The notes under the pieces: model-generated | Database searches by the model: none | Told to the model about the DNA's origin: nothing | The model's input: the letters and a program-made list of their open reading frames with translations, nothing else | In this document: piece by piece, positions 8,117 to 58,100 of the stretch | Layout: the number at the start of each line of letters is the position of its first letter | How positions within the stretch are numbered: the first letter of the stretch is position 1 | Position numbers and translations under genes: made by a program | DNA from: Chrysophaeum taylorii | Lineage: Eukaryota; Sar; Pelagophyceae; Pelagomonadales; Pelagomonadaceae | Reading direction: 5' to 3' | DNA length: 64,000 nucleotides | Assembly (NCBI GenBank): GCA_029834535.1 | Contig: JAQMWT010000200.1 | Coordinates: 62,001-126,000, forward strand

Positions 8117-8190
8117 TCTTCGCCCTGATCTCTGTTGTTTTTCTTTCTTGCCACAATGCCTTTATGACATCTTCGTCAAAGCTTCTCCTC

Positions 8191-8292
8191 TGTGAGCGTC
8201 TCACTTCCCCCTTTTTCCTTTTCCTTCTTTTTCAGCACCTGTGTGAGGACCTCACTTCCCCCTTTTTCCTTTTCCTTCTTTTCCAGCACCTG
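8191..8292 (+). repeat. Two tandem 51-bp units abutting the right LTR core
   Basis: Units 8191-8241 and 8242-8292 each start TGTGAG, carry a CTCACTTCCCCC plus T/C-rich tract and end CAGCACCTG, directly before the LTR core. The same unit forms the first 51 bp of the LTR in copia copy 3, so it is an LTR-derived unit that varies in number. Confidence 0.85.
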
Positions 8293-8388
8293 TGTGAGGA
8301 AGCTATGACACTTACCCCTGCACCACGTATCCAGTATCCTTACGTCTTTCTCTTATGGCTAGTCTAACGCCTCATACCATTCGTAAGA
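8293..8388 (+). repeat. Right LTR (core) of copia copy 1
   Basis: A 96-bp copy starting TGTGAGGAAGC and ending TTCGTAAGA. The last residues differ from the left LTR (AACA). It is followed by the AGAAC target duplication. Confidence 0.88.
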
Positions 8389-8401
8389 AGAACGATGTAT
8401 G

Positions 8402-31122: not shown

Positions 31123-31130
31123 TCTCTTCT

Positions 31131-31277
31131 TGTGTGGACCTCACTTACCCCTTTTTCCTTTTCTTTCTTTTCCAGCACCTGTGTGAGGAAGCTATGACAC
31201 TTACCCCTGCACCACGTATCCAGTATCCATACGTCTTTCTCTTATCGCTAGTCTAACGCCTCATTCCATTCGTAACA
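31131..31277 (+). repeat. Left LTR of copia copy 3
   Basis: 147 bp, TGTGTGGACC to TTCGTAACA. It consists of one 51-bp pyrimidine-rich unit plus the 96-bp core shared with copy 1. A TGGTAACAGGTGC primer-binding site follows at 31278. Confidence 0.92.
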
Positions 31278-32548
31278 TGGTAACAGGTGCAGCGTTCGTT
31301 CGTTTCGATCGAACCTGCGCTTGACTTCACGGCGACTCCTCATCGGCTTCAGTTCATTGCTACGTGTTCGGTTCGTTATCGTTTATCATGTCCTCGATCG
31401 AAATTAAGGATAGCAAGCTTTCGCACAAACTTGATGCCTTCAGCGGTGCGCGACATCTTTTCCACCACTGGCCACGTCGTCTTGCGAACATGATCTTTTC
31501 TACCGGCGATCACATTATCTCTACCAAAAAATCCTTGGACTAGCATCTCAGCATCTCGCTGCTCTGAAGGCGAATTTCGCGTCAAGCAACAACGTTGAGA
31601 TATCCATGAAAACCGCGACATGAACTTCACGCGACTTTACAAGCGCATTACCGATGTCTACATGGGCCGTGGGGATCGCGTAGCGAACTTCCTCAACAAG
31701 TTCATCATCGGAGTATACAAGTTGCTCGGCATTGTACCTATCACCGGCGTTTAAGTTGCTCGGCATTTTACCTATCACCGGAGTTCAAGTTGCTCGGCAT
31801 TGTACCTGATCCGACGCACCCTCGAGTGTGTCCTCGCATTTGACTACGTGCATCGTGCTTCAAGCCTTACGGGCTTTGTTTTATCGTCTCGCGTTTCGTA
31901 CCGATGAATGTGGTTGTACCCTTGAGAAGTTCAACAACAACCAATTTCGATGGCATGCACAACCACTTCCGCCGCGCTATCCGCCGCGTCGTCAGCCACG
32001 ACTTCAGACTCTTCCAACTGACCTACCCTAGACACTCCCCTTTCCCAACAAACTGGCTCTACTCGATTCCGACGCACTACCTGATGTCTTTTTGGCGGCT
32101 GCAAGGATCACTTTAAGGGGGACTGCCGCAACTTTCAAAGTTCCTAGCTATTCCACGACAACGCCCTACCCACCATCGCCGTTCTTCTCAACAGCGCAAC
32201 ACTTCCAATGACTCCAAAAACACCCAACAACACCAACCCAAACCCACCACCACTAACACTACCTTTTCTGCTCCTATGCCTACTCCCACCTTGACTGATT
32301 CTAGTTCCACTCCGCCGCTTTTCTTAATACCACCACCTATTACACCCCCCTTCACCGCCTTAAACGGCCACACCCACCGTCTCTCATACACTTCCCGATT
32401 CTCTATCTTATCATCTTTGCGCCTTTCTGCCAATCAAGATAATTCCAAGTCAGCGTGTGTACCGCCGAATGTCTGATGCAAGCACATCAACAACCCCATC
32501 CCACGGAAGCCCCTCGTTTTTTTGTTTTTAGCTCCCATTGCACAGGCG

Positions 32549-32812
32549 CCTCGTTCTGTATTTTCCGCTATTCGTTGCTCAATCCCTCGTTCTGTATTTT
32601 CACGTCGTCGTTGCTCCACCCCTCGTTCTGTATTTTCCCCTCGTCGTTGCTCCTCTCCTCGTTCTGTCTTTTCACCTCGTCGTTGCTCCCCTCATCGTTC
32701 TGTATTTCGCCTATTCGTTGCTCCACTCCCCGTTCTGCATTTTCAGCTATTCGTTGATCCACTCTCCGTTGTGCATTTTCACCTATTCGTTGATCCACTC
32801 CTCGTTGTGCTT
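32549..32812 (+). repeat. 36-bp minisatellite in copia copy 3
   Basis: About seven to eight diverged copies of a 36-bp unit beginning CTCGTTCTGTATTTTC and ending CGTTGCTCCAC. In one frame this encodes repeats of about 12 residues such as RSVFSPRRCSTP. It is absent from copy 1. Confidence 0.85.
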
Positions 32813-33986
32813 GTCGGTTTTGGTAAAACCAGCGAATCACGTTCCATCGCGCATTTCACCTGCCACAACTAAGCTGTGCCTGTCAATTTTTCGCGTGCGC
32901 AGTTTTCGTGCTTCCTATGTGGTTGGATCGCTCATCTTCGGGATCCTGGACAAACGCTTCTTTGCTGTGTGATTTGTGGTTCTCCTTCACGCACTTTTTC
33001 GCCGCTTTTCTGACCTTTAAAATTCGGTTTTGCTATCGACGTGAATTCCGTGCTCAGCACCCGCGACGCTATCTGCAATGTTCTTACGTGCCACTGCGAC
33101 GCTATCTGCAAGCTATCTGCAACGTTCTTACGGCTCCCATGCTCGGGAGAGGTCTGAAGTTAGTTAGTTAGTTTACAACTGTTTTGCCACTGTTGCCAAC
33201 TTCTACCGCAGTCTATTCGAGTATGACGAACGAAGCTCGCCGCTTGCTCCTCCAACGTTGGCCCATATGGCAACTTCGTTCTTGCGAATGCGAAAACGGG
33301 CCACTTTCTTATCTGTCACAGCAGGCTGGCATACAGCAGCCTGGTCTACCCGTGTTCGTTCCTTACACCGCTGGCGCGTCCGAAGTCTTCCATTTTCGCG
33401 TACAGGACGCGGTCGTGCCCATGGCAACTTGCTCGCGCCACAACAACCAAACACCCAACGTTCGCATCAACCCTGTTTACGCCTTTTTTTTTTTTGCTTC
33501 AGTCGCCTCCGACCATCGTCATAACCTGGTCACCATACAACATATCTTCCCAAAGGCAACGTTCTCATCAGACGTCTGGTACACCGCCATCATATGTACC
33601 AGCCTGTGTTTCCGCTATCTTTGCCCCGCTGCGATCCTCAGTGGCAACAATCGTCTAACGCACGTCATCCCAGGCACTTTTGTCGCTATTGTTCTTCAGA
33701 CCTCGATTTTGCTGACATTTTCACTTACCCGATTTCCTGCAATGTCAACCACCGAAGGCACTTCAACGTTGTTCTGACTTTCTCGAATCACGCTTCCAAG
33801 CTCTCGTCTATTGTTGCCCCATTGTCACCTGTTCCTGCTGTTGCCCGATTGTCACCTGTTCTTCCGCTTTTCTTCCGCTGTTGCCCCCTTGTCCGCTGTT
33901 GCCCCCTTGCCCCTTGTTTGATGAGAATGCGCCGGTTTCACTGGGACTGATCACCCCATCACGTGAACCGACCATTCTACGAGCTC

Positions 33987-34064
33987 GAGAGAAAACAACA
34001 GAAAGTGCAAAAGAGAGAAAACAACGGAAAGTGCAAAAGAGAGAAAACAACAGAAAGTGCAAAA
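33987..34064 (+). repeat. 26-bp tandem repeat, three copies
   Basis: Unit GAGAGAAAACAACAGAAAGT plus GCAAAA, three copies with one substitution, inside copia copy 3. Confidence 0.93.
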
Positions 34065-36062
34065 CAAAGTCGCGCCAAACGGAGCCGACCGCGCAAAGTC
34101 GACCAAAGCGCATTACAACAACCAGCAAACTTTCATACTGGCGTTTGTCAACAACGCAATGTCGATTCTGTTTCATCCTGTCACGATGTTGATTCTGTTT
34201 CCTCTGTCGCTTCTGTTTCCTCCTGTAACTCTTTGTATGTCTCTTCTGTTAGCTTTCGTTTGTTAGTTCATTATGTCTTCCTTCCCCTTTGTTTAGCTAA
34301 CACCCTTGTTGATCCCCATGCACACGTTTATTACTCTGCTTCCGAAGAAATCTCTCAGTATTGCCTTGACGAAACTACTATTACTTCCCCCCATTTACGT
34401 GAAGCTTTAGCTCCGACCAATCCTGAGCGTCCTGGCTGGTTGCAAGCCATCGCTAAAGAATACAGCTCTCTTGGTCAGCTTGGTTGCTGGGATGTTATTC
34501 GCCTTCCTTCGATGATGATGATGTTTCTGGCAAGATTTGTACCCTCAAGTGGATCCTCCGCAAGAAGTATGACGCTGGCCGCTTCAAATCGTACAAGGCT
34601 CGCCTCGTTGTCCGCGGTTACACCCAGGTTCACGGCATTGCTTACCACGACACGTGCCGTCCTGTAGATGTCATCTCTGCTTTCATACAAGCCCCTGTCT
34701 GGCGTTGCTGTTCATGACTGGGATTTGCATAAGTTGGATGTCAACTCCGCTTTTATTCAAGCTCCCATTGACGAAGACATCTATGTCTGGCCACCCGAAG
34801 GCTATGCTCCTCGCCAACCCACCGATGGTTCCAAAATCGTTTACAAGCTCCGTCGCTCTTGGTATGGTTGCAAACAAGCTTGTCGCAATTGGTGGCTTTA
34901 TTTGGAACGCTTCCTTCTCAATGATTGTGGCTTCGTCCGCGGATCTGGTGACACTTGCCATTACAAGCTCGTGCTCAATTCTACCGTCATTCTATCGTTC
35001 TGGTCGTTGATGATCTTCTTGTGGCGCATCCTCGTCATTGCATTGGCCATTTCCAAGCCTTTTTCCTCCGTTTCCGCGCTTTCACTGATGTCAATGAACT
35101 TGATCTCACCTCTTACGTTGGTCTTCGCATTACGCGTGATCGCCCTCGGAGAACCCTCACTCTTGACCAATCCCATGCTATCCGTGAAATCCTTACCGAA
35201 CATCGCTTCATCAACAGTAAACCCGACCTCACTCCCGCTCCCAAAGGTCTTCATCTTTCTGCGGCTGATTGTCCTACTCCTGGTTCTCCAGATCACATTT
35301 TCATGGCACGCATCCCTTTTCGCCGTATTGTTGGCTGTGTCCTCTTCATCTCGATCATGACTCGCCCTGATATCACTTGGTCCGTCAATCAGTGTGCGCG
35401 TTTTTCCCACAATCCTGGTAAACCCCACTGGCACGCTTGGCACGCTTTATCCCACACTCTGCGTTATCTCAACGGTTCTCAGGATCTTGCCCTTATTCTT
35501 GGTCGCGATTCTACCCTTCGTCTCTGTGGTTATTCCGACTCCAGCTGGGCCGACGACCCTGATGACCGCCACTCCACAACTGTTTCTTTGTTTTCTCCTT
35601 GCTGGCTCTATGATCGCCTACTGCTCCCGCTCGCAGTACTTACTTGCTCGCTCTTCTCTTGAAGCTGAATTGCTCGCTCTTTACGCCGCCACTGCTGAGC
35701 TCTCTTGGCTTCTCAAACTTTTTGATGACTTTGATCTCCCTCGTCACACGGTACCAATGTACGTCGATAATAGCACCACCGTCACCCAAGTCCGTCTTCA
35801 ATGTCTCACACGGCGCACCCGCCATATTGACATTCGCTTTTACAGCACCGCCGAATATCATCGCAACCACATCATTAATCTCCAACACATTACTCGTCTT
35901 GACAACCTTAGCGATATTTTCACCCGCCGTACGGAAGCTCCTTCCTTCCTCCGGCTTCGTGCTCGTTACCACACCTCGTGACTTCGCCCTGATCTCTGTT
36001 GTTTTTTTTTTTTTCTTTCTTGCCACAATGCCTCTATGACGTCTTCCTCAAAGCTTCTCCTC

Positions 36063-36114
36063 TGTGAGGGTCTCACTTCCCCCTTTTTCCTTTTCTTTCT
36101 TTTTCCAGCACCTG
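36063..36114 (+). repeat. Extra 52-bp LTR unit before the right LTR of copy 3
   Basis: A diverged extra copy of the pyrimidine-rich LTR unit (TGTGAGGGTCTCAC to CAGCACCTG), as also found twice in copy 1 at 8191-8292. Confidence 0.85.
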
Positions 36115-36261
36115 TGTGTGGACCTCACTTCCCCCTTTTTCCTTTTCTTTCTTTTCCAGCACCTGTGTGAGGAAGCTATGACACTTACCCCTGCACCACG
36201 TATCCAGTATCCATACGTCTTTCTCTTATCGCTAGTCTAACGCCTCATTCCATTCGTAACA
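36115..36261 (+). repeat. Right LTR of copia copy 3
   Basis: 147 bp, same length as the left LTR and matching apart from one visible substitution; followed by the CTTCT duplication. Confidence 0.92.
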
Positions 36262-36345: not shown

Positions 36346-37260
36346 CTAGAGGGCGGCGTGGCCCTTGAAGACGAACTTGGCGTCGCCCGTCATGTAGACG
36401 CGGTTGTCGTCCGCGCGCCAGTCGATGTGAAGGTCGCCCCCGGGAAGCTGGACTTTGACGGCGCGGTCGGCGCGTCCCGTGAGGACGGCGGCGACGCCGA
36501 CGGCGCAGGCGCCCGTGCCGCAGGCCAATGTCGCCCCAGCCCCGCGCTCCCAGACGCGCATCTTGAGCACGCGGGGGTCGATGACCTCCACAAACTCGGT
36601 GTTGACGCGGTTCGGGAAGACGGGGTGGTGCTCGAACTCCTTGCCGAGGGTCTCGAGGTCGATCGCCGCGACGTCATCGACGAAGACAACGCAGTGGGGG
36701 TTCCCCATCGAGACGCAGGTCCCCGCGTAGTCGCCGAGGACGTCGGCCTCGATCACGCGGTCGTCGACCGTAGGTTTTAGGGTTGTCGGAACCTTGACCC
36801 CACTGAGTTCGGGCTCGCCCATGTCGACCGTGACGGTGCCGTCCTCGCGCAGCACGGGCACCATGACTCCCCCCAGGGTTTCGATGTTGTAGGCTCGACC
36901 TCGGTCCGACGCTCGGCCGGCGTCGCCGAGGTCGTCCAAGAAGCGCGCGACGCAGCGAATACCGTTCCCGCACATTTCGGGTTCGGAGGCGTCGCTGTTG
37001 ATGATGCGCATCGCGTAGTCCCCGCCGTTCGCGGCGGGCAGCACGAAGATGACGCCGTCACCGCCGACTCCAAAGTTGCGGTTGCACAGCTGCGCTGCCT
37101 CCTCGGGTCCGACCTTCAACTTCTCCGAGTCGCGGTTGTCGACGAGCAAAAAATCGTTTCCGAGGCCTTGGTATTTGGAAAACGCCACTTCGCGCCCGGG
37201 AGGAGCTGTCAAAGCCGCAGCCGCAACAACGAACCACATCATCATCATCATCATCATCAT
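36346..37260 (-). CDS. dapF: Diaminopimelate epimerase
   Basis: 304 residues; interconverts LL- and meso-diaminopimelate in the plastid-type lysine pathway. Both catalytic Cys motifs are present: MCGNGIRC (about residue 97) and ACGTGACA (about 244). KYQGLGNDF and MGNPHCVVF are further family signatures. The leader begins with eight Met codons from a CAT microsatellite (37237-37260), then [14 protein letters not shown], which fits a targeting peptide; the true start could be any of the eight ATGs. The first ATG overlaps the stop codon of the upstream gene on the same strand (ATGA). Its end is about 80 nt from copia copy 3. Confidence 0.93.
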
Positions 37261-38384
37261 TTTTGGGTATAATAAGGATTAGGGTTTGAGGCGCGGCGGA
37301 CGAGGTCGGGAGGGGGGGCTTCGCCGTAGTTCTCCACATACCACTCGACAAAAAAGTGGTCGTCCGTGCGCTCCAACAGCTGCTGCTGCTGCTGCTGCTG
37401 TTGCTGGCGGCGGAGGCGGACCATTTGGTTGGCCGCGTGTTCGAGGGCCGCGCGGGGCGGGTCCTGGCCGTACTCCTGGCGGTACCACGTGCGAAAGCGG
37501 GCAATCGAGTCGTCTTCTTGGGCGGCAGGAAAGAAGCGCCTTTTGCCGGAGGAGGAGGGCTTTTCTTCTTCGTGCTGGGGGGGCGGCGGATCGGGGAGAA
37601 GACGCCTTCCGGTGCGGCGCGGCGCGGGCGCCGTCAAGTCGGGGCCGAGGGTACATTTTCCGCCACCGGTTTCTGCCTCGAACACTTTCCGCGACGACGG
37701 CTTCGGGTTCTCTCGGGGCTCGCCCGTCGCTTTGTTCTTAGCGTCGATTTGCCTCCGCGAGGCCCGCGTCCTAAGCACAAAGTTCTCCGCGCGCGGATTC
37801 CCGATCGCGTAGGCGTCCCCCCCCGGAAGGGCACAGAGTAGGCCGTCATTTTCGGGGGGGGTCGCCTTTTTTTGGGGCATCGAGCGGCGGCCCGGGCGCC
37901 AATTCGAATCGTCGCGGGATTCAGGCGCCGCGACGCGCGCGCGGCCGCGCGCACGAACCGCAGGAGGAGGTTGTTCCGAGTCGTCGTCGAGGTTTGTCGC
38001 GAAAGGAGTTTTCGCGCGTACTTTCGGGGGGGCGGGGACGCGAACCGGTCCTCCCGTCGGAAGTCCCGAGTCCATCGACTCCCATTTCTCCAGCGCTTTC
38101 TGCCGCAACAAGAGCTTCCGTTCCTCTGCTGCGCGGTCGTACGAGGGCACCTCTTCTTCTTCTTCTTCAAAGACAGTCTCGTTTTCCTCGACCTGCGGCT
38201 CTACCACCTCCACAGCGTGCTCGCTCATCCCCGCCCATGCCCCCTCCTCCGGGCCCCGCAAGGTCACTTGCCCCGTTTCTAGGTCGTACATCTTGGCCGT
38301 GCGCCGCGCGAACGGCTTTCTTCGAGCCATTTGCGCGTGTCGCTGGGCTTGCGCCTTGGCATGGTTCTCAAACAGCGCCTGCAT
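37257..38384 (-). CDS. Unknown basic, low-complexity protein with two WYxxxYGxxPP repeats
   Basis: 375 residues, mostly disordered and rich in Arg, Pro and Glu. The C-terminal part holds two similar segments, [20 protein letters not shown] and [20 protein letters not shown], separated by a Gln run. The N-terminus ([20 protein letters not shown]) looks conserved. I recognise no family. It lies directly upstream of dapF on the same strand, with the stop TGA overlapping the first dapF ATG, and is divergent from the Band 3/NhaA gene. Confidence 0.7.
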
Positions 38385-38583
38385 ATTATTATATATCGGG
38401 GAAACGTCAAAAAAAAAATCCGAATGCCAGGAAGGAAGTCGTTACAACTCTGTCTCTCGAGGCAAGTTCAAGGGGGGTTTCGTCTTATTTCTCCGCTAAA
38501 GAAGTTCCTTCTGCCGGGTACGAGAAGGAAGGAAGGCCCAGCTATATACATTTTGTTTAAGACCGACCAAAAGAGACAAGACA
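38385..38583. promoter_or_regulatory. Divergent promoter interval
   Basis: 199 nt between the ATG at 38384 (minus) and the ATG at 38584 (plus). No clear motif apart from a TATATATC-like stretch at about 38391 and TATATACAT at about 38542. Confidence 0.35.
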
Positions 38584-39426
38584 ATGGGAGAATCCCCGTC
38601 GCCGTCGGAGCACGTGTTGGACCTGAAGAACATGCAGGTCGACGAAAAGAACCTGGTCATGTTCAGGAAGAAACACCTGTTCGTCGAAATGCACGAACTC
38701 GGCGACAAGGAGTGGCACGAGACCCACCGTAGGACGACGACGCATTTAATATTTGAGTAAAAAAGTCGGTCGCAGGTTGGAATTACGGCCTCGAGGAGGA
38801 CCTCCGCGGGCAGAAATGGACGAGCGCCCACCTCCCGACGATCTCCGTGTTTGGGATGATGGCTCTCCGCGAACGTTTGCGTCCCGAGCTGGTGATCTTG
38901 GACGTCGCGACCGACGAGGACAGTCCCTGCGGAAAGAAAATGCGGACGATTGCGCTGGAGATCGTGAACCACTTGGTGCGCGACGGACAGATCGATCCCG
39001 GAAACGCCGCGGACGCGTTGGAGGTGTTGCACGCGCACTTTTGCTTGAAGAAATGCGTCGACCACGACGCGAGGCTTAAGGAAGAAGCTCTCGAGCGCAA
39101 ACTCTCCCACGCGAATCTCCAGGCCCACGCGGCGATGAGCCGGAAGCACAGCCACGCGAATATCGCGCAGTCGGCGCCCGTCGAGGCGGCGATGCCCCCG
39201 AAGTCCACGAGCCTGGCGCGCTTGAGCTCGCTGGTGAACCTCGTCCACGCCCGGCAAGTCGAGGAGCCTCCTCCTCCTCCTCCGGAGGAGGAGGTGGTAA
39301 GCCAGACACCTCGAGGAGGAGGAGGAGGAGGAGGAGGAGGGTCGCTGCTGCAGCCGCCGCGGAATTTGCGGTCCATCTCCGACACGCGGCGCGTGGTGCG
39401 CAGGAAGTCTGCGCTCCAGCGCATTC

Positions 39427-39459
<33 letters not shown>

Positions 39460-41885
39460 AAAAGAAACAACCCGAGCGCATCACGCTCCAGCTGCCGGCG
39501 GAAGACCCGCTGAGGCCGGACGCCGAGGAAGAGGCCGTTCACGTTTTGATCGACGACCAGTTCAACCAGTTGAAGTCGGACGCGGTGGTAGTCGTGCGGC
39601 TGCTGGCGCCGATTGCCTCGGGCCTCGAGGAGCGGCTCGACTACGACGACGAGGAGGGCGGAAAGCAGCAGCAACAGGATCTGTTGGCGCGGTTTATCGT
39701 TTTGGTTTTGGGTCCGCGCCGGTCGGACGCGTCGAGCGAGGCCGGCCGCCACCTCCAGTCCCACCGCCACTCGGAAATGGGGGCCGCGGCGGCGGCCTTG
39801 ATGCAGGACGACGCGGTGGTCCGCGCGCTGTACGAAGCGACGAATTCGCGAGTTCTGTTGGAAGCTATCGACTTGCGGTTGTCGGCGATGAGGGTCTTGC
39901 CGCAAACGTCGCGGCCGACGAAAAAAGCCGTCCACGCGCGGGCCTCGCGCATGTATCAGCAGCTCGCCGAGCTCCGGCGCGTCGCCGAGGAGCAAGCTCA
40001 AGCGCGGCTGCGCGAGTCGGAGATTCCGCAGACGCCCGTCGAGGTCGTGGGCAGAACGAACACCGCGGGCAGGTTTTTGCGCCTCGAGTACCCCGACCAG
40101 GGCGCCAAGTGGGGGGCGCGCGCCAAAGACTCGTTTACCTACGGTTTTAGCGTCGGAGCCTTCTTTAGCTTCGCGCAAAAGTACGCGCTTCCCTTGCTGA
40201 CGGGGATCGTCCTCGCGCTCGTTTTGGCCAACGCGCGCGCGGGCGGCTACCGCCGCTGGGCCGGCGTTCACGAAGAAGACGACGATAATGATCATCGCCG
40301 CCGCTTGTCTTCTTCCTCGTCTTCGCATCATCCGACCGTGTTCGGACTGTCGATCAACGATCACGACGTCACTCTCCACTTTATCGTGAACGACGTATTG
40401 ATGGCGTTTTTTTTCGGACTCGCGGTCAAGGAAATCGCCGAGGCGTTTCAGCCCGGGGGGTCGCTCTACCCGCCCTCCAAGCGAGCCCTGAATCCCATGC
40501 TCGGGACGGTAGGTGGAGTCCTCGGCCCCGTCCTCGTCTACCTCCTCCTCCTCGCCCTCGCGACGCTCGTTCCCGTCGGAGACGGAGGAGATCCGCTGTT
40601 GGCGGCGAGCTACGCTGACCTGGCCAAGGGCTGGGGCATACCGACGGCGACCGACATCTCGGTCGCCTGGGTGACTGCGGTGGTCGTGTTTGGATCTGGA
40701 CATCCCGCCATTAACTTTTTGCTCTTGTGCGCGGTCATCGACGACGGCATCGGCCTTTTGATCATCGCGATCGCGTACCAGGACCCCGATCACCCGCTCA
40801 ACCCCGTCTGGCTCCTCCTCGTTGTCCTGGCGATGCTCATTTCCTACGTCCTCCGCAGGCTCCAGTGCGGTCGCTGGCAGATGTACGTCGTCCTCGCTGG
40901 TCCCTTCGCCTGGCTCGGCCTCCTCTACGCCAACGTTCACGCGTCCCTCGCCCTCTGCTTCGTCGTGCCGTTCATGCCCATCAAGATCCAACCGGATGAC
41001 GTCGAGTCCCTGAACGGCGACGTCGAAGAAGGTTACCTTTCGATCGTCGACGGACACATCACGTCGAAGGACGTACGCCACACGTCGCCGCTTCACGATT
41101 TCGAAGAAAGCGTCAAGGATTTCGTCGATTTTTGCGTCTTGTTCGCCTTCGGCGCCGTCAACGCCGGCGTCGATCTCCAGGAAGTCGGCGGCTTGTCCTT
41201 CATCATCGTCCTCGCCTTGGTGCTCGGGAAGACCCTCGGCATGAGCGTTGGCTCCTCGTTGGCCGTCCGTTTCGGCTACGGCCGACCCGACGGCATGTCT
41301 TTCCGCCACCTCGTCATCTCCGGCGTCATCTCTTCCGTCGGCCTCACGGTCTCTCTCTTTATCGCCGGCGAAGCCTTTCCGAACGACGAAACCTACGAAG
41401 ACCAGGCCAAGCTCGGCGCTCTCTTGTCCGTGCTCCCCTCGCTCGTGCTCGTCGCTCTCGCCAATTTCTCCACGACCGGCCGCCGCGCCCTCGTCGGTAT
41501 CCCGGTCAACATCAAATCGGACTTCCTCAAACACTCCACGCCGGCGGAACACCTCCCCGACCTCCCGACCCACGACACGGGCACGACGCCCAAGCTCGCC
41601 GCCGGTCTCGCGGGCGACGGCATCCCCGCCTCGCCCGCCGAAACCAAGGACCCGGAAACGGGAGCAGAGAAGGACGTTATCGACTACGAGGTTGACTACC
41701 CCGAGGAGGAGGTCGACCAGGACGAAGACCTCGAGGACGTCGTCGTCCGCAACATACAAAAAACCCTCAAGGAAATCCACAGGATCGAGAAGCAAGTCGA
41801 AACCCGCGCCGGAGTCCGCCGCTCCTCTTCCATGCTCAACGCCTTCCACCACACCTCTGCCCACCTCACAAACGCGGAACCCTAA
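38584..41885 (+). CDS. Band 3 (SLC4)-like cytoplasmic domain fused to NhaA-type Na+/H+ antiporter
   Basis: Two exons, 38584-38728 and 38776-41885, joined in phase 1 give 1,084 residues. Around the junction the protein reads VEMHELGDKEWHETH then RWNYGLEEDL and GQKWTSAHLPTISVFGMMAL, the pattern of the SLC4 anion-exchanger cytoplasmic domain. Its later part (VHVLIDDQF, ARFIVLVLGP, SEMGAAAAALMQDDAV) continues to about residue 400, interrupted by low-complexity inserts. Residues about 460-880 form an NhaA antiporter of bacterial type: FIVNDVLMAFFFGLAVKEI, NPMLGTVGG, GWGIPTATDISVAW and CAVIDDGIGLLIIA, including the paired Asp of the ion site. The acidic C-terminal tail may be regulatory. Role inferred: sodium/proton exchange at a membrane with a protein-docking N-terminus. 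Confidence 0.85.
38729..38775 (+). other. 47-nt intron of the Band 3/NhaA gene
   Basis: GTAGGA donor and TCGCAG acceptor. It contains in-frame TAA and TGA. Its removal restores an unbroken SLC4-like reading frame across the junction. Confidence 0.85.
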
Positions 41886-42223
41886 TTTCTTCCTCCCTCC
41901 CTCCCTTCCTTCGTGACCACCTCTCCTTTTTTGTGCTGGTGGTGCTCCTCGTTGTTTTGAATCGAATCAACTGAGGAGGAGGAGGAGGAGGAGGAGGAGG
42001 AACAACACCACATTTATTTTATGCCTCTCGTATGGGACGGAAATCCATCGTCTGTCTTATTACGAAGGAAGATCCTGTAATAAAAAAAAAAAAAAAACAA
42101 CCTGTGTCTCTCGAGTCTTCTACTACCCCCTGCGGACCTGCCCCCATAAGGATAGATAGATAACCCTGAATTGGGAGACCGTTCGCAAGACCGTTCGTGA
42201 TAATGATCAAATAAAAAAAAAAT
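41886..42223. other. Intergenic, simple repeats only
   Basis: Contains a (GGA)n run at about 41972-42001, an A run at about 42081-42096 and an A9 directly before the next ATG. No gene recognised. Confidence 0.45.
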
Positions 42224-45821: not shown

Positions 45822-46095
45822 CTATTCTTCACGCGCGAGCCACTCCTTGCGGAGCGCGGCGAAAAGGTCGACGGCGGCGTCGGGTCCGGCGGCCTGCGGG
45901 ACGAAGCGGGCCGCGGGTCCTTTTTTGATGTCGCCGAGGAAGAGACGAACGGCCGCGCGCTGCTGGCGGGCCGACGCGGGGTTGGACGCGTAGGTTCCCC
46001 CCTCGAGCCGGTTCAGCATGTCAGCCATGTCGACGACGACCTCCTCGTGGAAGGCCGCCTCGCACTTGGACAGGATCGCGCTCAGCCTGTCCTCG

Positions 46096-46126
<31 letters not shown>

Positions 46127-49100
46127 GTCGCCGCGCTCGGGGTGCGAACGCCGCCGCCACCGCAAACAGCACGAGCAACAGCACGCCAAAGTTGCGAGGC
46201 CACCGCCGCCGCACTGGAGGAGGAGGAGGAGGAGGAGGAGGCCGGGAGGGGCGCGGCCGCGCGTCGAGAGGCGGCGTCGGCGGATCGGGCTTTGGCGGGT
46301 CCATTTTCTTGATCTTGCCGAAGAAGGCCACGAGCGTCGCCGCGGCCTCGGCTTTGCGCGAGTCTCGTTTGCGCTTGGCGCGCCACGAGCGCTGAATGGT
46401 TCGGGCATTGGTCTCCTCGGCGCTCGGCTCAAACCACAAACGGCGCGACGGCGGCAGCACGATCGACACGTCGTCGAGCGTCGACCACTTCCGTCGAGAC
46501 ATCTCGGCCGGCGGGCAGACCGCTTCGCGGAGCCGCTGCAGCGCGAGGCGGAGGGGCACGTAGTTCTGAAAGCGGAGTGCAGTAACGGCCGCGAGAACGG
46601 GATCGGCGCTATCGTAGCCGCCGACGGCGACGAGGTAGTCGCGAAGCGGACCGTCGTCGGCCTTGGCGGCGATGTCGCGCTCGGCGTGCGCGAGCGACGC
46701 GTCGAGCGCGTCGAGCTGGGGGGCTGCGAACAGCCGCAGGGTGGCTTCGGTGCCCTCGGGCAGCGGGACGTGGAGCCGGACGGGGAGGTGCGCGAAGTTG
46801 AAGGCTTCGACCTCGAGCTGCCCGCGCACGAAACTCGCGAGCGCCCGGAGATCCGACAGCCTCATCTGCGCGAAAAAGGTGGTCTGGTTCTGATCGACGG
46901 CAGGCACGAGCTCGAGGAGGTCGACGTCCGCGGCGCGCCGCAGCGCGGCCGACGCGTTGTCGTTCGAGTCGACGGCTTTGGGCTCCTGCTGCGAAAGCAC
47001 GTCCACGACCATCTTCAAGCCTAACAACAGCCCGCGGAGCTGCGCGAACGACGCGGCGTAGAACATGCCTCGGAGCGACGCCTCGAGGTCGGCCGTCTCC
47101 TTCACGTCGAGACGATCGAGAGCAAGCAGCACGGCCGTCGCGAGCGTCTCGCCGTCGTCTGCTGCCGAAGCGGTCGTCGTCGTCGTCGTCGTCGCTGCTG
47201 CTGCTCGAAAGTTGAAGACGCGCCGCAGCGACATGGGATCTGCGACTCGCGTGCACTTGGAGACGTAGAGCGTACGCATCGCCTCGAAGACGAACGTCGT
47301 GTCGAACGACTCCGTCGCGGGGTCCCAGCTCGCCTCGACGACCGAGTCGAAATACGTGCGGTCTCGGAAATCGATTTCGAACGGGAGCAGGTCTCCGACC
47401 ATGAGGTTGCCGTGGCTAATCACCTCCGGCTGGATCTCGGGCAGGTCCTCGGAAGCCACCCGCGACACCGACGCGTTGTACATCTCGATCATGCGCCTGA
47501 TGACGACGAAAAGGCAGTCGTTCCCTCCGAGCTCGTCCTCGTCGTCCGAGAGCAACCTCGCGACCGGGGTTTCGTCGGTAATGGGATCAAGCCGGTTCGC
47601 GCCGCCGCCGCCGGGGCGCTCGGCGCGCTCGGCGCACGCGCCGACGCCGATCCGGTAGCCCTGACTTTTCGCAAACCGATTGTACCCGACCTTGGCGCGA
47701 TCCCAGAGCTTCCCGACGCGTTCGCACGTCGACCGCGCGAACCGCGGCGGGGCGAGCTTGCTGAAGAGCTCTCCGACTGGCATCACCATCGCCATCTCGC
47801 GCGTCAGCAGGTGATCTAAATGCTCGGTGAACCACCCGTAGAGCTCGATCAACGCGGGGAGAACAGCGAGATGCCTCAGACCGACGCGCACCTCGACGAA
47901 AGCCAAGATTTGCTCGCGCCGGCGCGCCTCCTCGGGCATCGTCGACGACGCTGCCATTCCGTCGTCGTCGTCGTCGTCGTCGTCGTGATCATCATCATCA
48001 TCGTTGGAGGATGCCGCGCGCAACGTCGCGCTCAAGCTCGCACACGGCACCAGCGGTCCTTCCACCGCGACGATATCTGTGGCGACGGCGAGCGTCGGAA
48101 TGCTCCGGGCAAAAGCGCGAAACTCCTCCCAAAATTCGTGCCGCGCCGTCATTATTTCGAGCTCGCGCGTTGCCGCGTTCGCGCGATCCTGCATGTCCTT
48201 TACGTTCTTTACGTATCTTCGCGCGCTCTCCCATTCGAACGCCTGCCCACAACCTCCCTGCTGCTGGTTGCCGTGGAAGTCCCTTCCGCACACCATCGAG
48301 CCGCAACCGGAGACGCGCTCCACTACGCGCTGGCAGTTCGGGCAGTAGCGACACGTGGCCTCTTTCCTCGACTCGTCCGCGTTCAGCCCGTCGAGGGCCG
48401 TTCGCGCCTCCGCGATCACTCGCCGTTGTGCCGCGAGTGTTTCGGCGCGGGATTCGTCGTCCCTCCCAAACACCGCCTCGAACCACGGCCGGGACCACTC
48501 GAACCGCGATAGGTGCGAATTCGTCGACGCGCTCCGTAACAGCGCGTGAAGACTGGCCGAGTCGCGCAATTGCCTAAGAAGGCATGCAAAGAAGAATCGA
48601 GCCCACGCAACGCTTTGGTTCTCCATGAGCGTGGCCAGCACCTCGTAGACGGTCTCGGCAGAGGCCGGAGACGAAAGCGCGTTGATGCACCCCGGCTGTG
48701 CCGTCTCCGTCGCGAACTCGCGCGCGATGCGCGCCACGAAGACGATACAGGTGGCTGTCGCCACGATCGCGTCGACGTGCGCGGTCCCCGACGGGCTATG
48801 AGAAGCGCCGCGCCGCAAAAGTTGCCTCGCGCGGATAGCCAGCTGCGACGACGAGGCTTGATCGTGGGCAGCGAGGAATTGGCGCAGCAAGACGGCGTGC
48901 AACGCGTCCGCGAGCGGCAACACCTTCGAAGTACAAGAAGAAGAAGAAGAAGATGCGAGCCACGCAGGCACGTAGGACGGAACGTCGCGTTCTGTCATCG
49001 ACGCGGTGGCGAGAAGAAGGTTTTTCTCGATCGCGTTCACAACAGAGACCCTGAATCCAAGCCCGTCTACCCGCGAGGTCTGGCGCGTCGTAAGCATATG

Positions 49101-52100
49101 TCGGAGAACGACGATGCTCGTGCTCGGCGAACAACGACTGCCGGCGATCGCGCTCAAAATCACGCCGTCGAGAGACTTGATTCGCTCGTCGTCGCACTGC
49201 GAGAGTCGCCACGGCGAGGCGAGCCAGAAGATTGTGTGATCGCGGAACTTGCGCGAATCGAACGTCGCGTCGAAATTGTCGAGAAGACTCAGAAGTTCGT
49301 CTTCAACAAGAAAGCCACCACCACCACCGCCGCCGCCTAACACGTGCGCCACGCCAGCAACGGCGTGGTTAGGGTCGGTACAGGACGCGATCGCCGCGGC
49401 GGCCACCGAACATCGATCAAGATTCTCAAAAACGACGGTCGACAAGCGCGGCCAAGCTGGAAGATTAGCGCGGAAGTGAAGGAAAGCAGTCATCCACGCC
49501 TGGGCCTCGGAGTCCCAGAAAGATGAAGCGTCCTCGAGCTTGGCGCGGAGAGAAGTGACGTACCACGCGCTGATTGTTCCAATCAAGGCGTCGTCGTCGT
49601 CGTCGTCGGTCGTCGTCGAGAAAGCGAGCGTCTCCTCGTCTCTCAGCATCATTGCCAGCGGCTGCAACGAAGCGACGATGCGTACGACGTCGCCACGGTG
49701 AGCGCGCGTCCAGACGTGAAGGCTCAGGATGCTGTGCGACACATCGAGGCGGCCTTCGAGCCAGCGACCGACGTGCGTCGCGAGGGCGCGCGAGTCGCGC
49801 GAGCTCCCGAGCCTCGTTCCAACGTACTGCTCCAAGTATCGACGCCAAAGTTCCGGCGGCTTCGATCTGACTTCGGCTTCGATCGCTGCGACGAGAGAGA
49901 GCGCATCGTCTTCGTCGTCGTCTTGGCGCGCGACGTCGGCGATGCTCCGCGTCAGCCGCTCTCGGACCGTCTGTTCCAGGCCCCGCGCGTCGGTCCAGGG
50001 GTCGCGGATCGTCAGCAGAGAATGATCTGCATTTCCAGCGACGTTGATCGACGACGACGACGACGACGACGATGAGAGTGCCGCGTCAATGATCTCATCC
50101 ATGCGCGATGATACGTGCGAGAAAAAAGGGAACTGGGGGCTCGTCAAAGCGTTTTGTCTGACGCGGTGGACGTGATTGAGCAACTTGAGCTCGTCAACAG
50201 GGACCACCGGCACGCGAGCCGCAACGAACATGAAAAGTGCTGCGACTTCATCCGGAATATTGTCATCGGCGATGATGTCGCAGTTCATATCCTCGTCAAA
50301 CCTCACAATCGACAGCACGAGATAGTTGCAGAAGGTCGACAGGAGCGCCGACGTCACGGCTTCGGTCATTGGCAGGTGGGACTCCCCGCTCGCAATGCGC
50401 ACAGCCGAACTCGCGAGCTCGTCCGAGATAGAGCTGCTCGAGTTCCAGATTGTCGCAAAGCGCTTGCACAGGATGGCCTCCAGTGTCGTACCGCCGCTCT
50501 GCCACGCGAGGAGTCGCGCGAGACCTCGAACGCGATCGCGAAACGACGTGGACTGACGGAGGCCTTTACGAGCACAGTTTGGAAACTGGAGTCGCGAGGC
50601 GACGACACGGAGCGCTTGCGGAACGCATTTCAACAACGATGGCACGGGTCCAACCCAGGTCGACCTGAGGTTGCAGCCTACTTGGCAAAACTCGTTCACG
50701 TTGAAGGCCGCGGAGGCAGCACCGCCGCACGCGTCTAAGAATATGTGGTCCCAGCCTGCCAAAAAGAGCGCGGGGTACCGCCCCGACGTCCGCGTGCTTG
50801 ATGGGTGGTGCAACACCAGGACACACGTCCTCCTCCTCGGGGAGGAGGCATCACCACCCCCGCTGCTGCTCATGATTTGTTCGACCTTGAGGCGGACGTA
50901 ATTCACGCGGTTGACGGTAACCGCGTGCATGTCACACAAAACGAGTAGAATGCGATGCACTGACGTTTCACGCCACCAAGTGTCGAGCAAGCGTCGCAGC
51001 GCAGTTTCGCTCTGGATCTCGGTGAGCCGGACTATCGCGGCACCAGGAACGACGATCGCCCCGCTTGGATGATGACGACGACGAGTCTGCGATGATTCTT
51101 CATTGAGTGGCACGTTGTGAATACTTCGGATGGCCTCGGTGGTCCGCGTGAAGACGAGATGACGCCCGCCGCGCGAGCCAAGTTGATCAATCAACTTCAC
51201 CAAGTCAAAGTGCTCTTGTTGGTAATACAGACGACGGACCCAATCTGGCAAAGCGAGCCGGTTCGAGAAAATCATTTCGGGCGTCGCAATTCGCAGCAGC
51301 CGAGCCACTGCGACGTGAACCAAATACTGAGTGGCAAGCGCCTTCTGCGCCTCGATGGACGGTTCCAAGCCTTGCGCCGCCGCGTCTTGCGCTGCCACCC
51401 ACGGCGAAAACGGGTTCTCGTCCCCGACGACGACGCGGCCATCCAGCTCCAGCCGCTTGCGAGCCATGTCGACGACGTTCTGGCAGGACACGTCGTCGGA
51501 CGCCGCTTCGGGAATGTGTAAGCAGAGAACTTCTTCACGAAGATTGGCGATTATATTCTGGCTGTCGTCTTTTTCTTCGTCGCGAGAGGAGAGTCCTGCC
51601 GCATCCTTCTCTTCTTCTACCGGACCCTCTCGGCGGCGGCGACGAACTCTCCGGAACATGTCGACGAAGACAGAGTCGACGGTCTGTTGCTTGACGCCGC
51701 CAAAGAAGCCGTCGATGCCGACGAGGTCCTCGAGGTCTCGGACCTGCTGAATCGCGGCGCGCGCGACCTCTGCGAGCCACGACGGTTCGTCGAGCGCGTC
51801 GAGGGTGGCTCTCAGCACGGCAGACTGCGAGAGTCGAAACTTCTCGAATCGGTTCAAGAACGGCGCGGGCGCTTTGTCGACCTCGACCTGGCGCATGTGG
51901 ACGATGCACTGGAAGGCCGAATCGACAAGACACGGCTTCGAAAGAGAACCGATGGCGATGTTCGCGTAGTTGCGCACCGAGCCGTCGACGCCAGTGAACG
52001 ACTTGAAGTGTTGATTGAAAAGGTCGTAAAAAGCCTCGTTTATGGGTTCGGTCTGGCTCAGCACAACACGCCGGCCTTGGAGGCACGCGTACTTGACACC

Positions 52101-55100
52101 ACTCACAATGTTGACTTTCTGGACGTCGCCGTCCTCGGGGAAGTCCGAGAGCTTAAACAAGTCGTGATAATCGACGTCGATGAGGCCGTCGCACTGCAAC
52201 AACCGCGTCATCGAATCGTCGACGCTTTCGTCAATTATGAGTTTGTAGCGTGCCGTGTTGTTGTCGTCGAGACGCCGGTTGTCGCGCAGAGCGTCCGCGA
52301 CAACAGCGAGCGAGCTTCGCACCTCGACGGACGAGGCGGCCTCGCCGAGTACTGCTCGCATAAACGTCTCGACGATCTTCTGGAAGCATGTCTCGTCGAC
52401 ACCGTTGAAGTTGCGCTCGAGCGACCGAACGATCGCGTCCGGAGATGTTCGGAACAAATCAGTTTTGGAGGCGTCGCGTCGTAGCTGTTTCAGGAAATAA
52501 ATGAAGTCGCGCAGACCAAAGAATCGTTCAAACCAAGGAACCGTCCCATCTCGGTTTTTGAGGAGAGACGTGTAAGCGCGGCACACACCGTCGATGAGCC
52601 GGTCCACGGTGACACCGCGCGCTAAGCCAAGAACGGGTTGTGCCAGCGGCGGCGCGGCGTGCGCGTCGAAGAGGCACCCGAGCGCGATGTCGCGGAGCTC
52701 GGCAAATTCAGGTTCGGCTCGCAACAAGCAGACGCAACGATTGCTCTTGGCTGCGTCGAGGACGTGGTTGCTGATGGCGATAAAGCTCACAGAGGACCGC
52801 GTCGACATGTGGCCCTCGAGGTAGTAGTGTAATACCTTGAGCGACTCCTGCTCTTCCTCGGGCAAGCCGGCCTCGTCCATGAAGACGAGCGTCTGTAACT
52901 CGGAGTGGTCTTGGCGATCCTGGCGGGCAATGGCGCGCTTGAAGACGCTCTCGATCTCTGTGGACGTGCTGAGCCTCGAGCACTGGTAATGAAATCTGCG
53001 CGGAAGGAAGAAACGTATTATTATTATTATTATTATTCCAGAAGCTGACTGACTGACTGACTGAAGGACTGACTGAAGCACTTTACAATTACGAGACACG
53101 AACACGACACGACTATTGTTCCTCGTGAGGGTTAAAATTCAACTCTGAAGAGCGCACGGTTCGAGGCGCGGCATTTTCCGATAGTAGCTCTCGCGCGACT
53201 CCTCGCCTTTCGCGTTGCTGGTGATGATGTTTACCGACAACGTCTTCGACGAGCCGGGCGGTCCAATGATTATGAGGGGGATGCGCGAGAGCGCGCAAAC
53301 GAGCCTGCGCCGAAAAAATATGAGCGTCAGTTCAATTCGTAGACGCAGACTTATTATTATTTTAAGCCGCAGCTCAGGTTTTTTTGATTTGGACACTGAA
53401 CCTAGCGTCATGAACACGTTCTCTCTGAGGCCGGCGGTGCGGGCGATACCCGCGGGAATCTTCGTTCGCGAGACAACGTGATCAAGCGCCATGTCGAGGG
53501 CCGCAGCCAGTTTCAAATCCTGGTACGTCTCGCTCGGGAGCTCCTCGAGCCGCCGCAAGAAAAGCGATCGATACTCGGGCCCCAATCTGAGATAGTACAC
53601 GACTGCCAACGTCAGAAGCACGGCTCCACGACGCGAGTCGTCGTCGTTGCCGTCCACAAAGAATGAAGTGTCCCAGGCCGCGAAGAAATCTAGCAGCGTG
53701 AAGACCCGCTGGATGTCGCGCAGCGAGACGACAGAGTGCGCCCGCGACGTCGCTTCATTTCGCATTTCCTCGCCGCCGCCGCCGCCTGACGCGTGATGCA
53801 ACGCGAGCTGCGCCTCGATGTGCGTCGCTGCGAACTCGCGAATAGCGCGCTGCGATGTTGAGACAAGCTCGGTCATTGCTGCGTGATCGATGTCGGCGAT
53901 ATGCGGGTGGGTCGCCGCCAGCATTTCTAGCCGCATTTGGATGAACTCCTTCTCGGCGTCGGGGTCGAGAGACCCATAATTGAACTTTATGCGGTGGAGC
54001 GTAGATGGGAGATCGTGTACTTGATAGTGTCCCGACGCCCAATCCTTCCCGAGATCTGTGTGACGAAGGACGCCTCCTTGGGCCGTGGCGAGCGTCCGCG
54101 CGGGGTTGCAGGCCGCGATCACGACGACGTTGGAAGGCAGCGGTTTTCCAAGTATCGAGTGATCGATGAGGATCTCTTTGAAGAGACCCATCACAGATGA
54201 CGTGTTCACCTCATCCAAAAATACAACCACCTTTGCCGAACTGCCAGAATCTTGAATCCGGCGGGCCCTATCGACAATCTCTACGAATCGATCGGCGACG
54301 TCGTCCACGGCGAGAGCCGCGTGTACATTCAATTCGAAGAATAGTTGCACGAGGCGAGCCTCGGCGAACCAACGTAGCAGTCGCACGCAAGCCTGGGGGT
54401 CGTCGACACAGTCTTCGACCTCTTGGCAAGCGGCGTCGATCGTTTCTTTGTCGGGCTCCTCGTACATTCCTCCGCGGTCCCGCGCGGCCTCGAGGAGATC
54501 GGCACCTACGGAATTCAAGACTCCCGCAGGGTCCGTTTTGAGACCGTCCTCGAGGCGGCGGCGCACCAGGTCGTCGTCGTCGTCGTCGTCGTCGTCACCA
54601 TCGTTCTCGGGAAGCGCGTCGACGAGGGACTCGAGCACGCGGCGGGTCTCGACTTTGGCGGCAGTAAGAGCAGCCGTGTTCATCAAAATTGAGTACATTC
54701 TAGTTAGAGCTGTCTTCGAGACACCCGTTTCACCCTCCATGATGCACGGCACGTTGCATGCTATGCGTTCGTGGATGCTGAGAAGTTTGAGAGTGAAATC
54801 GAGCGTTAGCACGAAGTTGTTCTCGTCGATGGCTGCGATCCGATCCCGCGCATCGAGGGGGATTCCCATCGCGCGCGAGAGGTATGTGTCCAGGACCGCG
54901 CGACTACGCACCTCCATTGGGATGTCGAAGCCGAGGGCCTCGAACTCTGCGCGCGTCTTGGGGTCGACCAAATCCGGCGCGCTACTTATGAGGCCAAACG
55001 TCGGTCCATCCGGTCCCGTCATATCGTATATGAGCTGCTTGTGGTCTTCGTTCCGCCACGTTCGGCGAAAATTCTCGTTAAGCCCGACGCTGATTTCCTC

Positions 55101-58100
55101 GAGCATGGTCCTCATGAGGGTAGAGCCGAGATGGTCGTGCGACTCGTTGTAGTTGAACTCGGGCGACTCGTCAAACACTTTGACGCGGCGGTGCAAGTAG
55201 GAGATCCAGTGCTTCTGGAGAAGCTTGCCACCAGCGACGACGTGGGGTGGCATATATTCTGGGGTCGAGCTCAAAGGTAAGGGACATTAAGAACATCACA
55301 AGCACACGTATTACATTGTTGAAGAACAACGCGCGATAGTATAGGACAAAGAAAGATAGAAAAAAAAGGTCGTCGGACTCTGCATACTACGTTGAAGGTA
55401 CGACCGGCATTCGTTGTCGGAAAGCTCACCGTCGAGATCAAACGTCTGACTGACAGGGAGCATGGCTGCTGCCGTGGAAAACGCGTTATTAAGCGACTCG
55501 ATGTCCGCGGAAGTTGTCGGGATGTAGCTGCCGCGGCTCTCGCGGCGCGGCACACACAGAGCCTGCATCGCAGGAACAAGGGTGGGAGGCAGCTGGACAC
55601 CAATCACAATCAAGTGCACATCCTGCGCAACTGATAGTCGATTCCTGACCTCCGTTTCCGCCGTGTTTCGTGAAACGCCATCGGTGAGACAAATAATCCA
55701 TGTCTCGGCGTCGACGCCCGCTGCCGTTAAAATGGAGGACGCGTGAAGGTCCAACGAGGTGCGGAGACCCAACCACATTTCAGTCCCACCGCCGCGACAT
55801 ACCCGCTCTGCCTCGATGACCCTTCGAACGTGCGTTCTCTTCAAAGACCCAGCAGCCCCGATAACTTGAAGCGGCAACATGACGGCCGCATCGGACGCGA
55901 ATCTAACCAGGCCGATCATGTCATCATCGTTCATGTGCGTATCAAAGATTCGCAGCATGTTGTCGGCGGCCACAGCTTTCTTATGGCCAGCCATGCTACC
56001 GCTGTCGTCGATGACAAAGCAAACCCGTTTAGCTCGCGTCCGATTATTGAACTTGCGATTGATCGTACCGTCCGTATAGGCGCGCAGGTACTTGCAGACG
56101 CGCCGAATGTCGGCATCGACGTCGTAGGCCGCAGGAAGATCGACCACAGAGCCCACGTAGTACAGAAGCGGTACTGTGTGCAACATCCAGACTTCAAGAT
56201 CGTCCAGCTCGTCTTCCCCTGCCCTCGAGACGCCGATAAACTTGCGACACAAATCGTCGCTAACATGTCCACGGAGTGCGGGCAGCTCCACCAAGACGCG
56301 CCACCGGGAGTCTGCGGGGACTTCGAAGCGCAAGCCAGTTGCGTGATCGGTGACACACCCGATCACCAAGAGAGCGTAGAAAAAACTCTCTACCCTGGAC
56401 ATCCGCTCGAGCCAAGCGTCTTCATCCGTGTAAAAGCCAAGCTGAACTTGAAAGCAGACAGCGACTTCGCCGGATAACTCCCGGGTCGTATTGTGAAGCC
56501 GTCGGATCAAAGTCGCCAATGTGCAGGTTTCGTAAACGGGCACCACGCGGGTGTGCATGCCGGTAGCCTTGAGCTCGTCCATGCGCTTGCGCATGGCGTG
56601 CGTCTTGCCAGCACTGGGCTCAGAGGACGCGAAGACAGACACCTCAGCGATCGCAATATTGCCGACGACGAGCCTCGAGTACGCGCGTCGAGCGTCCGCG
56701 TGCGACGGCAAGATAGTGTTGCGTTGCGCTACCCATTCGCTTTTGCGGACCCACGGCGACGGCTGCAAGGTGGAGTCTCCACGCTCGATGCAATTTAGGT
56801 TGACGCTGTCGGCCTCGTGGCAAGACAGAAGAAACTTGACTACAAGTTCCTGACACGTTGTAGAGAGTCTGTCGACGTAGACGATTGAAAAGATCCGCGA
56901 TGTGCCGTAGTGCCGAACACGCTGCAAGAAAAGGCAAAGCTCGGCCGCCGTCGTGCCAGCGTCGTCGCAAGCAAGCAATTCGAAGCCTTCAGGCAGACGA
57001 GGATTGTAGATCCACAAGAGTAGTCGCAAAAGATCGGCAGAGTCACGACCAATCTTGTGAATGACGATGCCATTGCAAGCTTGCTGCCTCGCGGGGATAG
57101 CGGATGGACGCGTTGGTAAGGGTGGTAAACCCATTTCCATGTGCCAGTCTTGGAGGAAGCGACCAACAGCAGCCGGCCAGGCGAGCGATTGAAGGTTGGC
57201 GTCCTCGACCCTTGCCTTGATCGTGCGTTTTACGGCGCGCCTCGACGCAGTCAAAGATGCTTCGTCGTGTTGAGTCGCGCGACGCAGCTCGTGGCACAGC
57301 TCGACGATGACGCCAGGCGAAGGTCTGCGCTGGATGAGGTTTTTGAGCACTAAGGCCTCGCGCGTCGAATACAAGAGCAGGAGAGGGAATCGCGAACGGT
57401 TGGCATCGAGCTCGGCTCGGCAGTCGGCTAGCATGTTCTCGCACGCCAAGACCTCGTCCGCAACCTCGGCGTCAGTCCTGCGTAGGACTGGGATTGTCAT
57501 CGTCTGGTTGTTTTCAAACTTGGGGTGACCGTGCAGACGGAGGCTTAGGGCGCATTCGGCGAAGCGCCGGATGGAGTGGTGCTGCGCGAGGAATGCCTGG
57601 ATGGGCAGCGATCGAGCCTTATCGTCGTGTTGAACGAAGCCGAGTCGCGTGATCATGTCCTCGAGCTCGGGCCCTGAGAGCTGGGCGATATGGCCCGTGT
57701 TGGCAAGAGGCTTGTAGGCCAAGCTGAGCCGCAAGTCGCCGTGAGCGCTGGAGATGCGATAGTTGCCGTTGGCAACGATAGCGCGGAATTGGTCAAAGAC
57801 GGTGCCCATGTCGCCCATGCCTCGTGTAAACCAGATCCGCACCTGCGATATGTTCCGCTGGATCGTGTCGAGCTCTCGGAACGCAGTCTTGCGGCCGACT
57901 TCAGACATGACGCGGTGGCCCCGGAGGGAGGAGAGGAGCTCGGCCGGGCCAGCCCGACCATGGTACTCGGAGAGAACCGAGATATATCGAACAGCCGGGT
58001 CGAGTTCGTCGAGGACGTCCGACTCGTAAGCCTCGCCTTGCAGCAAGTTCGTTACGTTCTCGTACTCGTCGTTAAAGCGACGAAGCCCTTCGACACCGAT

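Follow-up and report, generated by a model that had tools for sequence, protein, structure and literature searches.

How does a cytoplasmic domain known from bicarbonate transporters of the SLC4 family come to precede a bacterial-type Na+/H+ antiporter, and what would it do there? The question is raised by a two-exon gene in a 64,000-nucleotide stretch of DNA (the window) from the pelagophyte Chrysophaeum taylorii (assembly GCA_029834535.1, contig JAQMWT010000200.1, positions 62,001 to 126,000), for which a first-pass annotation had proposed that a cytoplasmic domain of SLC4 type is joined to a bacterial-type NhaA. This fusion is borne out here, with two intact gene copies and a broken one in the genome. 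On balance we favour the reading that a horizontally acquired NhaA-type antiporter has gained an SLC4-type cytosolic domain, which would pair its protomers and tune the rate of antiport. Both domains are already known, and it is their combination that appears to be new; no description of a Band_3_cyto-NhaA fusion was found in the titles and abstract beginnings that made up the literature searched, and in one set of listed papers none contained both domain names. Relatives of the fusion may already lie unremarked in public proteomes, and E. huxleyi expression papers reportedly name a gene NhaA2, which was not confirmed in that literature.

Both families proposed earlier are matched in the spliced protein. 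Band_3_cyto (PF07565) scores 57.2 bits (E 2.7e-15) over two separate stretches (the stronger at residues 31-183) and exceeds its curated gathering cut-off of 34.3 bits, while Na_H_antiport_1 (PF06965) scores 178 bits (E 3.4e-52, residues 570-940) against a gathering score of 23.5 bits. The lack of a significant Band_3_cyto hit, which the first-pass annotation had set as grounds for rejecting its proposal, was not observed. HCO3_cotransp (PF00955) has no match in the protein at E up to 1. Exon 2 alone matches the NCBIfam anion exchange protein model TIGR00834 at 39.8 bits (E 1.5e-10), far under its cut-off of 599. When the domain was scanned in five fragments (both halves of the window copy and of its paralogue C167, and the first part of a third copy, C670), Band_3_cyto was the best family in 5/5, each fragment matching the corresponding part of the profile; the antiporter part by itself, included for comparison, had no Band_3_cyto match. 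In phmmer searches of the PDB, the N-terminal part retrieved eight distinct SLC4 chains at E up to 1, led by 8d9n (E 7.4e-7); the match covers both halves in order and is weak for the second half alone (8.7 bits).

The SLC4 N-terminal domain, as described in PMC5608694, has a disordered variable region, VR2, flanked by the conserved regions CR1 and CR2; it includes the motif ETARWLKFEE, and L[ST][LF] and [TVIL]V[LI]P strands mediate its dimerization. In the window copy and C167, the CR1- and CR2-like halves each match their own section of the profile, with a variable region between them. The counterparts of ETARWLKFEE are ETHRWNYGLEED (window copy), ETHRWNYGLQQH (C167) and ETRRCNYGLEED (C670): E, T and R are kept in all three, W is lost in C670, and the LKFEE part is not kept as such. 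The algal protein shares with animal SLC4 proteins (AE1/Band 3, AE2, NBCe1 and NDCBE) the PF07565 profile, the CR1-VR2-CR2 order, the ETxRW segment and the N-terminal position of the domain ahead of the membrane part. It differs from them in having NhaA and not a bicarbonate transporter as its membrane part, in its altered dimer motifs, and in lacking a long acidic N-terminal tail.

The identity of the membrane part is supported by both sequence and predicted structure. Its phmmer search of the PDB yielded eight NhaA sequences at E up to 0.01, the best being the E. coli-type 3fi1 (E 3.7e-23). An AlphaFold2 model (mean predicted local distance difference test score, pLDDT, 76.3) has NhaA structures as its 12 best PDB folds, headed by 7s24 (E 7.1e-14, template modelling score 0.64/0.76). 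Compared with E. coli NhaA (PDB 1zcd, 4au5 and 7s24), whose fold it is predicted to share, the algal protein keeps the equivalents of E78, D133, D163, D164, H225 and K300, counted on a sequence alignment and invariant over nine aligned sequences; it differs in its large N- and C-terminal additions and in having other residues aligned with R81 and E82. D163/D164 and K300 are residues of the NhaA transport site. A distant fold match is the sea urchin sperm Na+/H+ exchanger SLC9C1, which likewise joins an antiporter fold to added cytosolic regulatory domains; those domains are voltage-sensor and cyclic-nucleotide-binding domains, not Band 3. Since the N-terminus is placed inside in the account of the NhaA family in part of PMC8396727, the Band 3-type domain should be cytosolic, as it is in SLC4 proteins.

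The fusion requires removal of a 47-nucleotide GT-AG intron, as the first-pass annotation had predicted, which yields a frame of 1084 residues (Table 1). This splice has support independent of RNA, because C167 and C670 are both continuous across the intron position, where they read ETHRWNYG and ETRRCNYG, respectively. The Band_3_cyto match begins at profile position 2 with exon 1 and at position 29 without it. At the junction of domain and antiporter the frame of the window copy is open throughout. No in-frame Met occurs between residues 441 and 591, an interval that takes in the first membrane helix (near residues 510-535), so an antiporter that includes this helix could not be started separately.

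Table 1. Features of the fusion gene, in window coordinates
Feature	Position	Strand	Evidence
Two-exon gene	38584-41885	+	1084-residue frame after splicing of the 47-nt intron
Exon 1 (residues 1-48 and one base): N-tail and start of Band 3-type domain	38584..38728	+	Splice; Band_3_cyto profile match
CR1-like first half, residues 31-140, contains the intron	38674..39050	+	Band_3_cyto; PDB SLC4 chains
ETHRW, counterpart of SLC4 ETARW, residues 46-50, codons split by the intron	38719..38780	+	Aligned to SLC4 'ETaRW'
Intron, 47 nt, GT-AG	38729..38775	+	Paralogues C167 and C670 uninterrupted at the same place
Exon 2, single open frame ending at a TAA stop	38776..41885	+	Open reading frame
VR2-like low-complexity insert, residues 141-298 (158 residues), with poly-Gly, poly-Thr and Pro runs	39051..39524	+	Mostly missing from C167
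CR2-like second half, residues 299-450, including RVLP and the helix-like stretch after it	39525..39980	+	Band_3_cyto positions 228-290, E 1.9e-5
RVLP, where SLC4 proteins have a dimer strand	39891-39902	+	Residue layout
Linker, domain to membrane part	39981..40175	+	Residue layout
NhaA-type Na+/H+ antiporter domain, residues 516-945	40176..41465	+	Pfam match 40338-41450; AlphaFold2 model; PDB folds
Asp675, equivalent of E. coli NhaA D133	40653..40655	+	Alignment; invariant
Asp704-Asp705, equivalents of NhaA D163-D164	40740..40745	+	Alignment; invariant
His770, equivalent of NhaA H225	40938..40940	+	Alignment; invariant
Lys867, equivalent of NhaA K300	41229..41231	+	Alignment; invariant
C-terminal tail: acidic stretch and helix-like stretch partly common with C167 (IHR.E)	41466..41882	+	24/83 aligned residues identical to C167

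An antisense open frame of 1156 codons (window 38499-41966, minus strand) spans the whole fusion gene and exceeds the exon 2 sense frame in length; it is probably a by-product of codon usage.

The genome searched comprises 70.8 Mb in 697 contigs, in which the NhaA profile search picked up two loci, namely the window copy and C167. C167 is one uninterrupted frame of 938 codons without an intron, and carries both domains in the same order (NhaA, 180.3 bits; Band_3_cyto in two stretches, 29.1 bits, E 9.8e-7). The two antiporters are identical at 243/414 aligned residues (59%), and the two halves of the domain at 43/104 (41%) and 53/137 (39%). C670 (locus L010, 4358-6800) holds the first half, the second half and pieces of the antiporter in that order, and is most likely a pseudogene, because its frames shift and are interrupted by stops. 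It adjoins, on the other strand, an open frame that looks CLC-like by eye. Genes of the SLC4 membrane family itself (HCO3_cotransp) were found at two loci, C74 and C441, and their frames have no Band_3_cyto at E up to 1, as scanned in single open frames to which an upstream exon could still belong. The domain was thus found in this genome in three antiporter loci only, subject to the limits of the genome-wide profile search, which misses weak copies, as C167 was seen through a direct scan. The C441 protein (L013, 3180-5582) has, by eye, a hydrophobic N-terminal stretch, which could be a targeting signal, possibly to the plastid.

Several observations weigh against the reading favoured here. 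The 29.1 bits of C167 lie below the Band_3_cyto gathering score, as do the two hits of the genome-wide search (window copy and C670 only; 29.1 and 25.6 bits, read exon by exon), and the five domain fragments, at 20-31 bits (E 2.7e-7 to 6.1e-4), each fall under the whole-domain cut-off when taken alone. The paralogues resemble each other less in the Band 3-type domain than in the antiporter. The dimer motifs are near-matches by eye and depart from the strict form: ISV with RVLP in the window copy and ISV with HVVP in C167, such that ISV stands in for L[ST][LF], and RVLP, HVVP and RIMP for [TVIL]V[LI]P. The strict L[ST][LF] form is itself not universal, since the anion exchanger 8d9n has LNF there. 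A single-sequence structure model of the domain was unusable (mean pLDDT 44.6), and its fold therefore rests on sequence profiles. On the antiporter side, the NCBIfam NhaA equivalog TIGR00773 is matched at 140.1 bits, below its curated 254.

A bacterial source for the antiporter is suggested by its relatives. Thirteen of them came from a scan across genomes of prokaryote species. Antiporter matches were present in 39/199 genomes of Planctomycetota, 18 of them above 170 bits (best 304.7), and in 60/198 genomes of Bacteroidota, where only two exceeded 90 bits (226.6 and 187.5). The sequences found closest to the algal antiporter were planctomycete: the ten best matches from that phylum score 250-305 bits, with 43-50% identity when aligned by profile, and by blastp the ten planctomycete loci included in the tree are 38-45% identical to it. 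In a tree of 25 rows, from which five similar Comamonas rows out of 28 bacterial loci were omitted, the algal pair is split from ordinary NhaA together with planctomycete, two Peregrinibacteria and two Bacteroidota sequences (support 100/100). Within this clade, the algal pair groups with ten planctomycete rows and one Bacteroidota row (13 rows, 95/91), with no exact sister given. The sampling (199 Planctomycetota genomes, 198 Bacteroidota genomes and the 13 loci of the prokaryote scan) does not settle the donor phylum.

The bacterial members of the clade, although the closest antiporters, are shorter proteins: all 15 have stop-to-stop frames of 398-537 residues, and no domain besides the antiporter was found in the four scanned (4/4), a set to which weaker planctomycete matches with longer frames (647, 739 and 890 residues) do not belong. 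For these two reasons the fusion more likely arose in the eukaryote. Bacterial contamination was rejected as a source of the window, whose contig holds two of the genome's 84 Chloroa_b-bind matches. Of two other light-harvesting frames compared with the PDB, L058 (contig C531) has the fucoxanthin chlorophyll a/c protein 7vd6 as its best match (E 7.2e-80), and L054 matched nothing there at E up to 1e-10. In scans of IMG/VR, 11 stretches matched a pattern from the domain and 157 matched the antiporter alignment, and no viral relative was confirmed by either.

In the reading that we favour, the gene would be algal and nuclear, its host being most likely a chlorophyll c-containing alga, and would descend from a bacterial antiporter that entered the algal lineage, acquired the N-terminal domain of eukaryotic SLC4 proteins and later underwent duplication. 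The domain, lying in the cytosol if the known NhaA topology applies, would pair two protomers through the strands that dimerize SLC4 N-termini, and would make the rate of antiport depend on cytosolic pH, on ions or on a bound partner, as it does for SLC4 transporters. By analogy, it is probably a regulator that responds to pH or to ions. Regulation ranks first among the proposed roles because, in the sections of PMC4664831 that concern it, determinants of AE2 pH sensitivity are located in the non-variable region of the SLC4 N-terminal domain, and the fold of this domain is likened to that of EIIA, which in E. coli regulates a potassium transporter. Sensing of pH, which the first-pass annotation had offered as one role, is a hypothesis for the algal domain; the ETxRW segment is kept in both intact copies. 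The same annotation had spoken of an independent wiring of the same regulator, and this part of its interpretation is plausible from the sequences, as neither the SLC4 frames of this genome nor the 4/4 bacterial antiporters carry the domain. A wider idea, which we hold more tentatively and at somewhat less than even weight, is that the SLC4 domain is a portable acid-base control module, present in this algal lineage only on Na+/H+ antiporters of bacterial descent and not on SLC4 transporters, so that the same sensor would serve the other side of acid-base balance.

We consider it improbable that the domain is a platform for docking or anchoring (to the cytoskeleton, metabolic enzymes or a carbon-uptake complex) that leaves the transport rate unaltered. 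The tail by which red-cell band 3 binds glycolytic enzymes is long and strongly acidic, whereas the residues ahead of the algal domain, MGESPSPSEHVLDLKNMQVDEKN, number about 30 and are not strongly acidic. The long variable insert and the C-terminal tail could carry binding sites, but the insert is mostly missing from C167. In red-cell AE1, the determinants that bind cytoskeletal proteins are assigned, in a portion of PMC4664831, to the N-terminal variable region Nt-VR1, the algal counterpart of which is this same short tail. The ankyrin-repeat gene that the first-pass annotation had placed in the window was not recovered: 28 of the 34 single-frame open reading frames (ORFs) of at least 180 residues were scanned and gave no ankyrin match at E up to 0.001, a scan that may overlook a gene split into numerous short exons. 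With such a tail and no ankyrin match, the docking of glycolytic enzymes or ankyrin suggested by that annotation is unsupported.

Equally doubtful in our view is a role in assembly, in which the domain would receive no signal and be kept because it dimerizes and helps a foreign transporter to fold, to be trafficked or to remain stable. SLC4 N-terminal domains do dimerize, according to a part of PMC5608694, both interface-forming halves are kept in the algal protein, and the stretch past the second dimer strand is similar in all three copies. The interface motifs, however, are only partly kept, the bacterial relatives of the clade manage without the domain (4/4 scanned), and NhaA dimerizes by itself, as the dimer structures among the PDB matches illustrate.

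The possibility that a bacterial EIIA-type domain of the phosphotransferase system (PTS) came with the antiporter, in place of a eukaryotic SLC4 domain, arises because the phylum with the closest antiporters also has such domains on SLC4 proteins. Band_3_cyto was matched in 17/294 genomes of Planctomycetota, in 10 of them above the cut-off, and the five proteins scanned (L046-L050) were SLC4 proteins (HCO3_cotransp) with an N-terminal PTS_EIIA_2 domain (5/5); one genome, G070, holds both an EIIA-type SLC4 and a plain antiporter of the clade as separate genes. These proteins share with the algal one an EIIA/Band 3-type domain preceding an ion transporter, but their transporter is HCO3_cotransp and their domain is EIIA-like, with a His motif PH(A/Y)Y (PHAY or PHYY) in 5/5 and ETxRW in none by eye; their best Band_3_cyto stretches lie within positions 197-290 (one also at 56-108). 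The algal domain, in contrast, has the ETxRW segment and a Band_3_cyto match from position 2, and PTS_EIIA_2 (PF00359) has no match in the algal protein at E up to 1 or in its fragments at E up to 10, for which reason we class it, from these profiles, as of the eukaryotic SLC4 kind. As the clade's bacterial antiporters are moreover plain (4/4 scanned), the EIIA origin was rejected as very unlikely. In L046-L050, the EIIA-type domain may represent a bacterial precursor of the Band 3 cytoplasmic domain and is perhaps controlled by the PTS.

That two neighbouring genes or a mis-assembly have been read as one protein, to which an intron proposed from the DNA alone lends some colour, is barely credible and was rejected: one frame crosses the junction with no internal start before the first membrane helix, and an assembly accident is unlikely because C167 keeps the order in one frame, C670 is a broken copy of it, and both pass the intron position.

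Elsewhere in the window, one repeat is present in two copies (3048-8390 and about 31130-36260) that are about 92% identical over 2.1 kb and lie in stretches of strongly negative GC skew; the first copy contains a Copia-type retroelement frame (RVT_2, gag_pre-integrs). A diaminopimelate epimerase gene (36349-37278, minus strand, 231.6 bits) is present, as expected for plastid lysine synthesis. On the minus strand at 45825-60824, three very long frames of 2438, 715 and 1837 residues lie almost end to end, the sole domain found being VWA in the 1837-residue frame; they are possibly one giant gene with short introns.

The fusion described here suggests that a regulatory domain familiar from one family of transporters has been transferred to another, unrelated family. 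Should the domain act as a regulator here as well, its signal could be investigated without the complication of bicarbonate transport, and a response common to both kinds of transporter would mean that this signal is cytosolic pH or a ligand that they share and not the ion being carried. It would also show how a bacterial Na+/H+ antiporter came to be placed under a eukaryotic control element in an alga, which has a bearing on pH and sodium balance in phytoplankton.

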